The translations under genes were made by a program, and so were the position numbers. From Insolitispirillum peregrinum (GTDB lineage Bacteria > Pseudomonadota > Alphaproteobacteria > Rhodospirillales > Rhodospirillaceae), in the NCBI RefSeq assembly GCF_900156605.1, contig NZ_FTOA01000004.1:186001-250000 (forward strand): a stretch of DNA of 64,000 nt. The letters are read 5' to 3'. How positions within the stretch are numbered: the stretch's first letter is position 1; each line of letters opens with the position of its first letter. The notes beneath the pieces are model-generated. The model had not been told where the DNA came from. It worked only from the letters and a program-made list of their open reading frames with translations, and did not search any database. Below are positions 57,101-63,503 of the stretch, piece after piece.

Positions 57101-58621
57101 ATGCTGAATCAGGCTCTGGAAAAGATTAAGGCCGCCATTACGCTGCGCCCGCGCTATGGAAACTTCATTGGCGGCGAATGGGTTGACCCGGTGAAGGGCC
57201 AGTACTTCACCAACATCAGCCCGGTGAACGGCCAGCCGATCTGCGAAATTCCGCGTTCGACCTCCGAAGACATCGAAAAGGCGCTGGACGCCGCCCACGC
57301 TGCCAAGATCGCCTGGGGCAAGACCCCGGTCGCGGCCCGCGCCAACATCCTGCTGAAGATCGCTGACCGTCTGGAAGCCAACCTCGAAACCATCGCGATG
57401 GTCGAGACGCTCGATAACGGCAAGCCGATCCGCGAAACGATGGCCGCCGACATTCCGCTGGCGATCGACCACTTCCGCTACTTTGCCTCCTGCGTCCGCG
57501 CTCAGGAAGGCTCGCTGGCCGAAATCGACGACGACACCGTTGCCTATCATTTCCACGAGCCGCTGGGCGTGGTCGGTCAGATCATCCCGTGGAACTTCCC
57601 GATCCTGATGGCCGCCTGGAAGCTGGCTCCGGCCCTTGCCGCCGGCAACTGCGTGGTGATGAAGCCCGCCGAGCAGACCCCGTGGTCGCTGCTGGTGCTG
57701 GCCGAGCTGGTCGGTGACCTGCTGCCGCCGGGCGTGCTGAACATCGTCAACGGCTTTGGCATCGAAGCGGGCAAGCCGCTGGCCTCGTCGAACCGGATTG
57801 CCAAGATCGCCTTCACCGGGGAAACCTCCACCGGTCGCCTGATCATGCAGTACGCCTCGGAAAACATCATTCCGGTGACGCTGGAACTGGGTGGCAAGTC
57901 GCCGAACATCTTCTTCCCCGACATTTTCGACGCCGACGACGACTTTGCCGACAAGGCGATGGAAGGCTTTGCCCTGTTCGCCCTCAATCAGGGTGAAGTC
58001 TGCACCTGCCCGTCGCGTGTTCTGGTGCACGAAAAGATTTTCGACGAGTTCATGGACCGCGCCGTGACCCGCGTGAAGGCGATCAAGCAGGGCAACCCGC
58101 TCGATCCGTCGACCATGATCGGGGCGCAGGCCAGCGTCGACCAGCTGGAAAAGATCATGTCCTACATCGACATCGGCCAGCGCGAAGGCGCCCAGCTGAT
58201 GACCGGTGGCAAGCAGGCCAAGCTGGGTGGCGAGCTGGACGGCGGGTTCTATGTCGAACCGACCATCTTCGTCGGCAGCAACTCGATGCGCATCTTCCAG
58301 GAAGAAATCTTTGGCCCGGTGGTGTCGGTGACCAAGTTCTCGTCGATGGAAGAAGCCCTGCACATCGCCAATGACAGCGCGTTCGGTCTGGGTGCCGGGG
58401 TGTGGTCGCGCAACGGCAACGTCGCCTACCGCATGGGCCGCGAAATTCAGGCCGGTCGCGTGTGGACCAACTGCTATCACCTGTACCCGGCCCACGCCGC
58501 CTTTGGCGGGTACAAGCAGTCGGGTATCGGCCGCGAAACCCACAAGATGATGCTCGACCACTATCAGCAGACCAAGAACCTGCTGGTCAGCTACAGCGCC
58601 AAGGCCCTCGGGTTCTTCTAA
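57101..58621 (+). CDS. exaC: Aldehyde dehydrogenase (ExaC/AcoD-type)
   Basis: A 506-residue NAD-dependent dehydrogenase. Catalytic Cys301 (GEVCTCPSR) and Glu262 (TLELGGKSP) are in place, and the Rossmann GETSTGRL loop is near residue 240. It oxidises acetaldehyde or related aldehydes from the periplasmic alcohol dehydrogenase to acids, in the cytoplasm. The paired Cys301-Thr-Cys303 is typical of this group. A DUF779 gene follows, as in other acetaldehyde dehydrogenase loci. Codon use is strongly biased, suggesting high expression. Confidence 0.9.
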
Positions 58622-59001
58622 AGCCGGAGCTGCCGTGGGGGATGGCCCGCCAGCCCTCCCCCACAGATGGTACAATGGGTGCCGACAGGGTGTGATCCAG
58701 CCCTGATCCCTTCCCGGATCGAATGGATTTCAGGACCATCACGGGTCTTTCAGGCGGTGCGGTTGCCGTTTCCCGACGGCAATCAGGGGGTACAGCCCGA
58801 AACGTGGTGTTGATGGGCAGAGCAGTAAGCGCAAACGTGGGCACCGGTTTTGCGCCCGATCGCTGCGTCACTGCTCTGGCGTGTTACAGCAGACAGGGGT
58901 CACGCATGCCTCCTGTTTGCCAGCCTCATCGGGGCTATTCTCTCAAAAGACTGGGGCGGGCATCTGTGGTGCCCGCCTTTTTTTCTCTACAGGAGTCTTT
59001 C
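58622..59001 (+). other. Region between the aldehyde dehydrogenase and DUF779 genes
   Basis: A 380-base gap. A degenerate relative of the short palindrome (GCGCAAACGTGG / CACCGGTTTTGCGC, 58829-58855) and the strong terminator at 58955 are the only recognisable elements. The frame open upstream of the DUF779 gene shows no protein-like bias, so no gene is called. Confidence 0.6.
58955..58984 (+). terminator. Rho-independent terminator in the DUF779 gene leader
   Basis: An 8-base stem GGCGGGCA / TGCCCGCC with a 7-base loop, followed by seven T. It ends only 17 bases before the DUF779 ATG, and the ribosome site AGGAG (58991) lies just after the U-run. Confidence 0.88.
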
Positions 59002-59424
59002 ATGAGCACCACTGACACGGCCTCTTTCACGCCACCCCCGCGCGTTCTCGCCACCCCGCTGGCGCTGGAATGGATCAAGACGCTGAGCGACAAGCACGGC
59101 CCGCTGATGTTCCACCAGTCCGGCGGTTGCTGTGACGGCTCGGCCCCGATGTGCTACGTGCAGGGAGAGTTCAAGGTCGGCGAGCGGGACGTCTGGCTGG
59201 GCGATATCGGCGGCTTTCCGGTTTATATCGGCTGGTTGCAATTCGAATACTGGCAACACACCCAGTTAATCATCGACGTTGTACCGGGGCGCGGGGCCAG
59301 TTTCTCGCTGGAAATCCCCGAGGGCATCCGTTTCCTGACCCGATCCCGCGTGTTCACCGATGAAGAATCGCTGGCCCTTGATGCCGCCGGCCCTGCCCCC
59401 CGCGGTGCCCATCACGGGGTATGA
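59002..59424 (+). CDS. DUF779 protein associated with acetaldehyde dehydrogenase
   Basis: A 140-residue protein of DUF779. SGGCCDGSAPMC near residue 40 is the family Cys motif, which could bind metal; LQFEYWQHTQLIIDV is the other block. DUF779 genes commonly lie next to ExaC/AldB-type dehydrogenases; the function is unknown. AGGAG precedes ATG 59002. A terminator lies immediately upstream, so its expression probably needs read-through or a promoter within about 300 bases. Confidence 0.85.
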   Translation: MSTTDTASFTPPPRVLATPLALEWIKTLSDKHGPLMFHQSGGCCDGSAPMCYVQGEFKVGERDVWLGDIGGFPVYIGWLQFEYWQHTQLIIDVVPGRGASFSLEIPEGIRFLTRSRVFTDEESLALDAAGPAPRGAHHGV

Positions 59425-59598
59425 GGAACTGCTTTGCCGTTTGTCTTCTGATGGTCATTCCTGTTCAGGAAAAGCACCCTGATCGTTGAAGCAGTGGTGG
59501 ATTTTTAAGCATGAAGAGGGCACTCTACAGCCATCCTCCTTAAAACGATGGTCCTAATGCAACAAGGCCAGGGAGGGGGGGGAGAGCGGAGGGCGCCG

Positions 59599-62280
59599 AT
59601 GGCAGAGATTTGGAATCCCGACCATACCGACCGGCATCTGCGACGGGCGATGGTCCTTTTGGGATGCGCGGCCGTACTGTTCGTGGTGATCAGTGTTCTG
59701 CAAATCCTGACTGTCCGCGACGGCGTGCGCCGCACCACCCACGACCTGGTCGAACAGAACATCATTGCCAGCCAGCAGGACCTGCAGAAAAGCATGGAAC
59801 TGCTGGTCAGCGATTACAGCTATTGGGATGAAGCGTTCGACACCATCACCCAAAGTCTTAATCCCGACTGGCTGCACAGCAATTATGGTCCCGACCTGAC
59901 CAGTTCCTATCAGGTCAGCGCCGTTTATCTGGTCTATCCACGCGGACCGATCCGGCAATTTGCCAACGATGCCATCGAGGATATCGACAGCAGCACGCCA
60001 GCAGCAATGACCCTGATCGGGTCCTTGCGCGATCTGGCATCACAAAGCCGCCTCATCACCCCCAACATCACCGGCCGCCCGGCGACCAGCTCGGGATTTT
60101 TGCTGATTGATGGCGTTTTGTATGTTGCCGCCACCTCGGAACTTCGCCCGGCCGTCAACGTCCGGGTGTATGACCGGGAAAGCGTACCCAATGTGGTGTT
60201 CCTCCGCCCGCTGAATACCGCCTGGCTGGAACAGCTGACCTCGCGCCTGTCCTTGCCCCATGCCAGTCTGGTCCGCATCACGCCCACCGAAACCACCGTC
60301 CTGCTGCACGCCCACGATAGCATGCACCCGGACAATGGTTCGCCGCTGACCCACGCCCTGTTCACCAACCCAAAGGACTTGCTGAAATCGTCGGTGGTCT
60401 TTGCCAATCCGCAAGGGCTGGAAATCGCCCGGCTGGAATTTGTGCCGCCAGACATGGCCCCGACGCTGGTGTCACCGACCGCCCTGATTGGCATTTTTGC
60501 CAGTTGCGCCCTGTTGCTGGTCGGTGCCCTGTTGATGCGCCAGATGAGCCGGACATCGCGGGTGGTCGCAGCCCAGAACGAACGCCTGCATTACGAAGTG
60601 ACCTGTCGGGTGGCGGCGGAAAAGGAATTGCTGCGCCATCAGGAGCATCTGGAAGAAACCGTCGCCCAGCGCAACACCGCCCTGTCGCGCGAAGTTGAAC
60701 GGACCCATGCCCTGCTGCACGATCTGGAAAACTCGCTGCAACGGGTGCAACGGATCATCGACACCTCGAACGAGGGCTTTGTCCATCTCGATCAGGCCGG
60801 ACGGGTGATCGGGATCAATCAGGAAGCCCTGCGCCTGCTGGGCTACAGCGCGACCGAGATGATGGGAAAATCGCTGGAGCCCATCCTGACCCCCGAGGGG
60901 CTGGCCATCTTCCACGAACAGATGCGCCTGCGCAGCTCGACGCAGTTCCGCTCCTACACCCTGACGTTCCATCACAAGGATGGAACACCGGTACAGGTTG
61001 ACGTCATGGCGTCGAGCGAATTTGACAACGGCAGCCTGAGTGGATCCTTCGCCTTCTTCCGTGACATCCGCGAACGGCTCCATCAGGAAGAAACCCTGAA
61101 GGCCGCACAGTTGAGTGCACAAACCGCCAATCAGGCCAAATATGCCTTCCTGACCCGCATGAGCACCGAACTGCGGACCCCGCTGAACGCCATCATGGGC
61201 TTTACCCAACTGCTGCTGACCAGCACTCCGCCACTGCCGCCACGACAGCGCGATCAGGTGGTCCGCGTCCATCAGGCGGGCGAAGCCCTGCTCTGTCTGG
61301 TCAACGAAACCCTCGATTTTTCCCGCATCGAAAGCGGGCAAGTCATCCTGAAACTGGAAAATGTCGCCCCGGCGGTGATTCTGGCCGAGTGTGCCCGTCT
61401 GGCCGGAGTTCTGGCCGAGCAGATGGAGGTCACCATTCACCTGCCGGGAGAAGAGGGCGACTCGCTGGCGCCTGCTCTGGTGCGGGCCGATCAAAGCCGC
61501 CTGCGCCAGATTCTGCTCAATCTGATCAGCAACGGCATCAAGTACAATCGTCCGGGCGGCACCGTCACCCTGTCCGCCGGACCTCTGAACCGGCAGTTCT
61601 ATCGCCTGCGGATCGAAGACACCGGCTGCGGCATCCCCGAGAGCCTGCTGCCCCACCTGTTCGAGCCGTTCAACCGCCTTGGACACGAAAACTCCAGCAT
61701 CGAGGGTACCGGTATCGGTCTGGCAATCAGCAAAAAGCTTGTCGAAGCCATGGGTGGTCGCTTGCTGGCCGAACCGCAGGAGCAGGGCATGCTGTTTGCC
61801 GTTGACCTGCCGCTCGCCACCTCGCCGTCTCGCATCACCCCATCGTCCCACACCACCAACGAGGCCTCTCCGGCCCTGTCCGGCGGCGTGATCGTGCAAG
61901 CCAGAACGCCCCCCGCGCAAGTGCTGATCATCGAGGACACCCCCGGAGACCGGGCTTTTCTACAGCAGGTTCTTGGCCCTTACCCCAGCTATCACGTTCA
62001 CGCGGCCAGCTCCTGCGCTCAGGCTGTTCCCCTGATCGAAATGGCTCCGCCGGACCTGTTGATCGTCAGCCTGCCAGCCGAAACAATGGCCGAGGAAGCC
62101 GTCGCCCAGGAAATCAGATCCCTCCTGTCGCTGGAAAACTGCCCCTTGCTGGCCTTGCTCCCCCGCACCCGTGGGGCCGATCTGGCGCGCCTGAAGCAAC
62201 TGGGCATCACCGCCAGCCTCGGCAAGCCCATCCAGCCCCTTGCCTTGCTACGGGAAATCGAGCGGTTGCTGTCTGCCTGA
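59599..62280 (+). CDS. Hybrid sensor kinase lacking both phosphorelay residues
   Basis: An 893-residue membrane protein. TM1 is at about residues 17-36, a CHASE4-like sensor at about 45-290 and TM2 at about 295-315. A PAS lies at about 375-495, a HisKA-like helix at 505-575, an HATPase with N (NLISNGIKYN), G1 (DTGCGI) and G2 (GTGIGLA) boxes at 610-745, and a receiver at 775-890. The H-box reads MSTELRTPLN, so Thr523 replaces the phospho-His. The receiver strand reads DLLIVSLP, so Ser824 replaces the Asp; Lys of LGKPI remains. It can probably bind ATP but not relay phosphate by the usual route. GGAGG precedes ATG 59599. Confidence 0.88.
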   Translation: MAEIWNPDHTDRHLRRAMVLLGCAAVLFVVISVLQILTVRDGVRRTTHDLVEQNIIASQQDLQKSMELLVSDYSYWDEAFDTITQSLNPDWLHSNYGPDLTSSYQVSAVYLVYPRGPIRQFANDAIEDIDSSTPAAMTLIGSLRDLASQSRLITPNITGRPATSSGFLLIDGVLYVAATSELRPAVNVRVYDRESVPNVVFLRPLNTAWLEQLTSRLSLPHASLVRITPTETTVLLHAHDSMHPDNGSPLTHALFTNPKDLLKSSVVFANPQGLEIARLEFVPPDMAPTLVSPTALIGIFASCALLLVGALLMRQMSRTSRVVAAQNERLHYEVTCRVAAEKELLRHQEHLEETVAQRNTALSREVERTHALLHDLENSLQRVQRIIDTSNEGFVHLDQAGRVIGINQEALRLLGYSATEMMGKSLEPILTPEGLAIFHEQMRLRSSTQFRSYTLTFHHKDGTPVQVDVMASSEFDNGSLSGSFAFFRDIRERLHQEETLKAAQLSAQTANQAKYAFLTRMSTELRTPLNAIMGFTQLLLTSTPPLPPRQRDQVVRVHQAGEALLCLVNETLDFSRIESGQVILKLENVAPAVILAECARLAGVLAEQMEVTIHLPGEEGDSLAPALVRADQSRLRQILLNLISNGIKYNRPGGTVTLSAGPLNRQFYRLRIEDTGCGIPESLLPHLFEPFNRLGHENSSIEGTGIGLAISKKLVEAMGGRLLAEPQEQGMLFAVDLPLATSPSRITPSSHTTNEASPALSGGVIVQARTPPAQVLIIEDTPGDRAFLQQVLGPYPSYHVHAASSCAQAVPLIEMAPPDLLIVSLPAETMAEEAVAQEIRSLLSLENCPLLALLPRTRGADLARLKQLGITASLGKPIQPLALLREIERLLSA

Positions 62281-62321: not shown

Positions 62322-63503
62322 CTATAAATCGTCGTCGTGGTCAAAAATGCGTGCAAACTGCTGTTCAATCCGCGCAAAGGCGGCCAACAGCACCGGGTCA
62401 AAATGCTGGGGACAGGAATAGCCATCGCCCTGCAACAGAACCCGCAGGGCAGCCTGATGATCCAGACGGGCTTTATAGGGTCGTTGCATGCGCAGGGCAT
62501 CATAGACATCACAGAGGGCGGTCAGACGGGCCGAGAGGGGAATGTCCTCCCCCCGTAGCCCTTGCGGGTAGCCCGAGCCATCGAAATGCTCGTGATGACT
62601 CAGCGCGATTTCGGCGGCCAGTTGCAGGACCGGATGCTGCGTTCCCTCCAGCAGGCCATGGCCGATGGCCGCATGCCCCCGCATGATGGTCATTTCCTCG
62701 GGGCTGAGCAGGCCGGGCTTGTTGATCAGCCGGTCCGGAACGCCGATCTTGCCCAGATCATGCAGCATCGCCGCCCATCCCAGGCGCTCGCTCTGTGCCG
62801 ATGGCAGACCAATTTCGTCAGCCAATAAGCGCACGTAACGGCCAACACGCTGGCAATGCGCCCCGGTTCCGTCATCGCGCAAACGGGCACAGGCCACCAA
62901 ACGTTCCAGTAAAATGGATTCCGCCTGCGAGAGGTCGCCCTGTTGCGATACCGTTGTCGCCAGCAGGGGCGAGGCGGGAGCGAGAGAGGCGGGGACGGGA
63001 GAGGCGGGGCCAGCCGGTTGATCAAGACGGTTCTGCAAACAGACGATCCGTTGACGCTGTCCGGCAGCATGAACCGCCCGCATCAGGGCCGCCAACAACC
63101 GCCCGTGATCGATCGGCTTTTGCAAAATGTCATGCACCCCCAGCTCACCGGCCTGCCGCCACAGGTCGGGGGAGCAACTGCTGCGACCAGTCATCATCAC
63201 CGCCTCCAGCGCTGTCCCCTGCGCCTTCAGGTGCTCCAGCAGGTCGAAGCCGGTCATGCTGGTCAGGTGGATGTCAACCAGTCCGACATGAATATCGGGA
63301 TTGGCGCTGAGGGCATCGAGTGCCTGTCGCACGCCATGACACAGGATCGGGGTATAGGAAGACTCCTGCAAAAAATCCCGCAGAAACTCTCCGACATTCG
63401 GATCGTCCTCAATCACCAGAACAGCGACAGGAGCAAAGAGTGATCGCACAGCACAGCCCAGTTCGTGACGGTATCTCCCGCATGACGGACCATGTGGAGC
63501 CAA
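62322..63503 (-). CDS. Response regulator with HD-GYP phosphodiesterase domain
   Basis: A 393-residue protein. The N-terminal receiver has the acid pair VIEDDPN, phospho-Asp in LVDIHLTSMTG and Lys in LQKPI. A linker leads to an HD-GYP domain at residues about 205-385: HCQRVG, MLHDLGKIGVPD and HHEHFDGSGYP, the metal and GYP motifs of cyclic-di-GMP phosphodiesterases. It should hydrolyse c-di-GMP on phosphorylation. No ATG is available: TTG 63503 and GTG 63449 are the candidate starts. It is convergent with the kinase gene. Confidence 0.85.
   Translation of the reverse strand: MAPHGPSCGRYRHELGCAVRSLFAPVAVLVIEDDPNVGEFLRDFLQESSYTPILCHGVRQALDALSANPDIHVGLVDIHLTSMTGFDLLEHLKAQGTALEAVMMTGRSSCSPDLWRQAGELGVHDILQKPIDHGRLLAALMRAVHAAGQRQRIVCLQNRLDQPAGPASPVPASLAPASPLLATTVSQQGDLSQAESILLERLVACARLRDDGTGAHCQRVGRYVRLLADEIGLPSAQSERLGWAAMLHDLGKIGVPDRLINKPGLLSPEEMTIMRGHAAIGHGLLEGTQHPVLQLAAEIALSHHEHFDGSGYPQGLRGEDIPLSARLTALCDVYDALRMQRPYKARLDHQAALRVLLQGDGYSCPQHFDPVLLAAFARIEQQFARIFDHDDDL

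Follow-up and report, generated by a model that had tools for sequence, protein, structure and literature searches.

What can a hybrid histidine kinase still do once both of its phosphorelay residues have been replaced? The question is raised by P0001, a gene in a 64,000-nucleotide stretch of the Insolitispirillum peregrinum genome (contig NZ_FTOA01000004.1, positions 186,001 to 250,000; hereafter the window), in which an earlier note, made from the sequence alone, had seen a hybrid kinase with His changed to Thr and Asp to Ser. The open reading frame (ORF) was placed correctly in that note: it runs from 59599 to 62280 on the plus strand and specifies 893 codons (an 893-residue product) with no internal stop. 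A second in-frame ATG lies at 59548, and the ATG at 59599 is preceded by a purine-rich AGCGGAGGG, as judged by eye. The most likely reading of P0001 is a pseudokinase that works through a partner, with action on another kinase being possible; on balance we lean slightly toward its being a phosphotransfer-dead pseudo-hybrid kinase that acts by protein contact.

Thr523, encoded by ACC at 61165..61167 (+), stands at the phospho-His position both in the alignment and in the codon reading, inside the H-box MSTELRTPLN that had already been read in this way, and leaves P0001 without a phosphorylatable H-box His. The His residues closest to it are 495 and 558, so that helix 1 offers no nearby substitute. 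Of the E-x-x-T-P motif (61168..61182, +), E524, T527 and P528 are retained in the sequence, and the core keeps 28 of the 30 positions that are conserved at 80% or more across 167 homologous rows (left from 208 after the removal of duplicates, of sequences the same as P0001 and of any row below 80% length). The two departures are the exchange of His for Thr523 and an N-box exchange of Ala for Gly646, a Gly that is found in the same column in 8 other rows. Apart from this single N-box change the ATP-binding boxes appear intact, as had been claimed, and the CA domain is thus predicted to have its nucleotide-binding boxes. The His column of the 167 rows, which include DivL rows picked on purpose for their missing His, holds 133 His, 29 Tyr, one Cys and one Ala along with three gaps; the Ala row (L163) is an alignment slip, and its H-box reads with His.

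In the receiver, Ser824 (AGC, 62068..62070, +) falls on the phospho-Asp column, which is 98% Asp in an alignment of 133 rows (obtained from 147 by pruning similar to that of the core, with rows of fewer than 90 residues dropped), and no phosphorylatable receiver Asp is left. The earlier description of this site as SLP in place of DxP holds for the Ser but has the register wrong, since the conserved Pro column (85%) corresponds to residue 828, where P0001 has Glu. Leu854 (62158..62160, +) takes the place of the switch Thr/Ser, in a column with 59% Thr and 38% Ser (97% pooled), and P0001 thereby lacks both the Asp and the switch residue, as is characteristic of a pseudo-receiver. Glu replaces Gly at column 832 (96% Gly), and Pro replaces Ala at column 855 (77% Ala), directly after the switch. 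The acid pair E779/D780, Lys876-Pro877 and much of the receiver core are retained. Judged from the alignment, the receiver is degenerate at several positions, and the extent of the change had been understated. This half of the finding is a common one, given that in a representative set of bacterial receivers the share of pseudo-receivers is put at about 6% (PMC12632262).

One alternative is that Thr523 is itself the phosphoacceptor, which would make P0001 a Ser/Thr-type kinase on a histidine-kinase fold. Its hydroxyl would lie exactly at the acceptor site, and both Glu524 and the ATP-site residues are kept; against this stand a pseudo-receiver without an Asp to accept the phosphoryl group and the case of DivL, in which the Tyr at the same site is described as not being needed as a kinase site (PMC4211667), and we consider such a kinase very unlikely.

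The domains of a hybrid histidine kinase, HisKA, HATPase_c and receiver, are all present in the one chain. The HisKA/DHp domain covers residues 514-580 (61138..61338, +; Pfam PF00512, 59.7 bits) and the HATPase_c/CA domain residues 631-740 (61489..61818, +; Pfam, 91.5 bits), the latter with its N, G1, F and G2 boxes. The pseudo-receiver, residues 774-887 (61918..62259, +), is recognized by a profile of the relatives' receivers at 81 bits and by the secondary structure of a predicted model, and Pfam Response_reg matches residues 775-887 at 24.6 bits, under its 30.2-bit cut-off. On the input side lie a PAS domain (residues 382-490; 60742..61068, +; PF00989, 54.5 bits) and a CHASE4 extracytoplasmic sensor domain (residues 63-220; 59785..60258, +; PF05228, 51.2 bits). 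CHASE4 sits between two hydrophobic segments, residues 17-37 (59647..59709, +) and 295-313 (60481..60537, +), which on hydropathy only are likely transmembrane, giving what would be the layout of a membrane sensor. A predicted model of residues 376-893, made with 25 aligned sequences, has a mean predicted local distance difference test (pLDDT) value of 84.8 and a predicted template modelling (pTM) score of 0.52. The DHp, CA and receiver-like domains are each modelled at good confidence, the pseudo-receiver showing the alternating strand-helix pattern of receivers with high pLDDT, and it is because of the pTM score that the arrangement of the domains is unsure. In a fold search with this model, histidine kinases and plant phytochromes make up most of the top 50 PDB matches; ShkA comes at rank 18, GacS at 27, RetS at 28 and DivL at 29.

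Are the two exchanges ancestral or derived? The genomes compared for conservation all come from genera other than Insolitispirillum. Counting the source genome itself, the sensor part has matches in 5 of the 73 family genomes at an expect value (E) of 1e-5 and in 10 of the 317 order genomes at E 1e-6. The best of these matches (G021 and G035) are 29% identical in the sensor, and their kinase parts, 43% identical to P0001, have the His and belong to chains that end without a receiver. Two further proteins (G010 and G028), 37-38% identical from the PAS domain to the receiver, have the His in place and likewise the Asp of the receiver. According to the earlier note, close relatives in which the two residues are restored would have told against its reading. 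The residues are indeed there, His in all four of these proteins and Asp in the last two, but the relatives are distant: they belong to other genera, show 37-43% identity across the part that matches, and match the sensor weakly or not at all. A tree was built from 78 of 138 rows, namely the best-scoring ones and three Tyr rows, the DivL rows fetched by pattern being left out except for two. In it, all 74 rows other than P0001 and the three Tyr rows carry His; P0001 emerges from an unresolved fork among His rows, its highest core identity to any row of the tree being 51% over 236 columns (L060, with His), and the three Tyr rows form a clade that excludes it (support of 99 in the Shimodaira-Hasegawa-like approximate likelihood-ratio test, SH-aLRT). 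With His kept in all 74 rows and Asp in the two best-scoring relatives that have a receiver, the double loss is derived, and as far as the data go it appears private to this lineage within the genomes compared.

Thr at the H-box is very rare, going by scans at several taxonomic depths. Every H-box was read for the 69 HisKA matches of the same genome, yielding 66 His, one Tyr, one Glu and one Thr, the last being P0001. The Tyr match (G000:C17, 552786-552989) belongs to a DivL-like kinase, L232:978-3458, with the H-box MSYELRTPLT. The Glu match (G000:C15, 166137-166343) is a GAF-like HisKA-HATPase protein on the complement of L231 (1149-2501) that reads LAESFNTPL, with the Glu assigned by eye. 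Among the hybrid kinases of this genome, those closest to P0001 are C10:271781, C15:401787 and C13:340125. In its ACN form, the H-box pattern is found in only one of the 317 order genomes, that of Insolitispirillum peregrinum, and in its CAY form at 1271 places (a sum of typed counts) in 125 order genomes, 101 of the 125 having it. Across 385 genomes of the class, a pattern for non-His codons before E-x-R-T-P-[L/F]-N, which is blind to codons starting with C, gave 89 places in 88 genomes; tallied by eye, these are 86 Tyr, one Cys, one TAG and the one Thr of P0001. The aligned Tyr matches presumably represent DivL, whose motif they resemble, and serve as a positive control. The Cys match (L182; G318:C101:11281-11309) has a DivL-like H-box reading VSCELRTPLN, with Cys instead of Tyr, and the TAG match (L179; G620:C187:2354-2382) is a DivL-like H-box with the TAG codon precisely at the Tyr position, for which sequencing error, a broken gene and read-through are the candidate explanations. 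The Thr form occurs in two of 398 phylum genomes, that of P0001 and G823; this pattern, like the one for non-His codons, demands an otherwise canonical H-box. The G823 match (L203; G823:C373:3625-3647) reads MSTELSTP, with Ser for Arg.

Confinement to one genome is also what would be expected if one or both codons were the product of a sequencing or assembly error. Neither of the two codon changes, to Thr523 and to Ser824, is explained by one base-call error, each taking a minimum of two base changes; four further conserved receiver positions differ, and the source genome is listed as 100% complete and 0.14% contaminated, in 25 contigs. We find error scarcely credible as an explanation. The same minimum of two base changes per codon also speaks, mildly, against a very recent origin of the exchanges.

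With the acceptor His, the receiver Asp and the switch residue all gone and the ATP-site residues kept, the question becomes what the ATP site is for, and the candidate uses are trans-phosphorylation, phosphatase action and conformational switching. The first would make P0001 a trans-only kinase, whose CA domain would use bound ATP to phosphorylate solely the partner's His in a heterodimer, its own chain never carrying phosphate. The retained nucleotide-binding boxes, together with Glu524 by the acceptor site, and the 66 His-bearing HisKA matches in the same genome leave room for this; against it, kinase dimers are mostly homodimers, and both a partner and nucleotide binding are putative. If true, such a kinase would add an extracellular input to another kinase, but we hold it to be rather improbable.

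In the reading that we favor, P0001 would keep the shape of a hybrid kinase while being itself unable to run a phosphorelay or to carry phosphate. Its CHASE4 and PAS domains would go on sensing a signal and passing it as movement to the DHp-CA core, which would act by contact on another protein, either by pairing in a heterodimer with one of the cell's normal hybrid kinases or by transmitter-phosphatase action on the partner's receiver, or by both; the pseudo-receiver may then be a docking or inhibitory domain. There are precedents. RetS, which does not autophosphorylate, is described as inhibiting GacS in three ways, by taking phosphoryl on its receiver Asp, by acting as an HExxT phosphatase on the receiver of GacS and by blocking autophosphorylation (PMC5992135); by analogy, only the last two, an HExxT-type phosphatase and a block of autophosphorylation, could be used by P0001. 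The phosphatase activity of VicK needs the Thr and Pro of its motif and also ATP (PMC3582566), a need that would give the retained ATP site of P0001 a purpose. DivL, with Tyr at its H-box, works without kinase activity and shows that a kinase fold devoid of the His can feed into a phosphorylated regulator (PMC4211667). A pseudokinase evolved from ChrS heterodimerizes with its paralog HrrS (PMC9491836).

How does P0001 compare with these and other known systems? With DivL it shares a HisKA-HATPase core whose phospho-site holds a residue other than His inside an otherwise kept H-box; however, DivL has Tyr, several PAS inputs and no receiver, where P0001 has Thr, CHASE4 and a receiver. The DivL of Magnetospirillum magneticum is described as having Ala at the phospho-site (PMC4211667). 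P0001 has neither the Tyr, nor a place in the Tyr clade, nor a PAS input without a receiver, and we reject its identity with DivL on residue, architecture and tree; apart from P0001, the same genome encodes a DivL-like kinase of its own (L122, MSYELRTPLT). CCNA_03265 (CC3162) of Caulobacter crescentus is likewise a hybrid kinase whose histidine kinase domain lacks the conserved His; by its description it keeps, unlike P0001, the receiver Asp, and a nearby His is weighed by its authors (PMC11481889). RetS of Pseudomonas aeruginosa resembles P0001 as we read it in being a hybrid kinase without autophosphorylation that controls a kinase by contact and phosphatase action (PMC5992135). It is the reverse of P0001 in its residues, its H-box and working receiver Asp being kept and its ATP domain degenerate; P0001 appears to have no such degenerate ATP-binding domain, and it keeps the E-x-x-T-P residues. 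ShkA and CikA are hybrid kinases in which a pseudo-receiver holds autophosphorylation down, through HisKA binding in the case of ShkA (PMC12632262), but unlike P0001 as we read it they are described as autophosphorylating, and ShkA also as having a true receiver. A hybrid kinase in which both the His and the Asp are lacking was not found in literature searches directed at kinases without the His or without the two residues, outside which most subscription papers lay, several of the papers within them being available in part. DivL, RetS and CCNA_03265, each with one relay step broken, indicate that two-component folds are reusable as contact-based regulators. The value of P0001 as a further case is limited, there being one gene, one genome and no known partner.

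Several points weigh against P0001 as a contact-based pseudokinase. At E 1e-5 its genome gave no second sensor match that could be a paralog and natural heterodimer partner. Phosphatase activity would have to be exerted with Thr at the His site, and in one study several variants of EnvZ from which phosphatase action was expected did not outperform a catalytically dead control in mammalian cells (PMC8971529). The scans of family, order, class and phylum genomes turned up no ortholog that shares the substitutions. The receiver fits the codon usage of the neighboring genes less well than the rest of P0001 does (0.12 vs 0.31-0.38, the HD-GYP gene next to it having 0.11; the DUF779 gene, being out of frame, was excluded here and from the 20-locus comparison below).

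The last two of these points equally serve the main rival, a young pseudogene whose function was lost first at the receiver and next at the His, with stops and frameshifts still to come. The several losses in the receiver fit such a history, as do the other-genus relatives that keep His and, in the two aligned with a receiver, Asp. The end branch of the P0001 core is long, at 0.91 against a median of 0.48, but the other His rows at the same fork have branches of 0.64-1.41. What speaks against decay is the conservation of the CA domain and of the rest of the H-box, along with a normal codon-position composition: the GC contents at the three positions of the whole gene are 0.65/0.44/0.75, with the same shape in four segments and in the neighboring genes. 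We also simulated neutral change until 5 of 12 receiver sites were lost, these twelve being our own choice of sites at least 75% conserved with Glu/Asp and Thr/Ser pooled. The 893 codons stayed free of stops in 0.15-0.45% of runs. The loss among the 30 core sites was held to at most two in 1.2-1.9% of runs, the mean being 11. The simulation is rough and starts from the present sequence, and because it leaves out indels its stop figure is conservative. An open frame is thus rare after such receiver loss, which tells against an entirely neutral decay of the gene from the breakdown of the receiver onward. The loss of the His is not dated by this, though, and the receiver could have decayed first in an active kinase; a kinase with a dead receiver and a recently lost His would look alike. 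We therefore regard a young pseudogene as an appreciable but lesser prospect. The idea of a pseudokinase acting through a partner, first raised in the earlier note, is supported in part by the open frame, the normal codon composition, the kept core and the rarity of this state under neutral decay; the HD-GYP partner proposed with it fares differently.

The gene for this partner, a REC-HD-GYP regulator known from the ORF list and a domain search, lies at 62322..63503 on the minus strand, 41 bases from P0001. P0001 as its dedicated allosteric regulator would be supported by the adjacency of the two genes and by the Asp that, by eye, the HD-GYP receiver still has. The genes are on opposite strands, though, tail to tail, and no HD-GYP homolog was found at E 1e-8 in 20 exaC-DUF779 loci of relatives, a sample from the 58 further genomes of the order that have DUF779; the pair may still occur at other places in those genomes. 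Given the convergent orientation and the lack of a shared neighborhood in the 20 loci, we set this link aside as very improbable. The loci hold no full-length kinase ortholog either: ExaC is nearby in 20/20, and four have matches of 24-31% identity to the kinase part (query 488-883 at most), with the sensor covered in none. The P0001 gene thus stands outside any conserved neighborhood in that sample.

Upstream of P0001 are genes for a pyrroloquinoline quinone (PQQ) alcohol dehydrogenase, pqqE, pqqC, pqqB, PQQ-associated ABC parts and a beta-propeller, as well as a CXXCW protein, an ExaC acetaldehyde dehydrogenase and then DUF779. Location alone, directly downstream of exaC-DUF779, makes the control of alcohol oxidation a candidate role for P0001. 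Hybrid kinases do accompany PQQ alcohol oxidation genes in Pseudomonas, where ErcS and ErcS'/PedS1 occur in such clusters and a PedS1-PP_2683 heterodimer has been proposed (PMC12997753). The NahK/ErcS C-terminal model NF041832 scores 114.8 and 116.4 bits on P0001 against a cut-off of 400, a generic match, and we reject this assignment on the score; a kinase of the same genome at C15:516918 passes the cut-off with 466.7 bits.

The ExaC-type acetaldehyde dehydrogenase gene itself lies at 57101..58621 (+; NF050026, 937.5 bits vs a cut-off of 900) and the DUF779 gene at 58723..59424 (+; PF05610, 155.3 bits), its real start being probably about 58999 by eye. P0001 begins 174 bases past the DUF779 stop on the same strand. 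The scan for terminator-like sites on the plus strand gave none between these two genes, and that for sigma-70-like promoters gave none upstream of P0001, a result of little weight in this organism. Between exaC and the DUF779 gene, at 58953-58979 of the window, is a strong terminator-like hairpin with a T run, which suggests that DUF779, and perhaps the kinase with it, is on a separate transcript.

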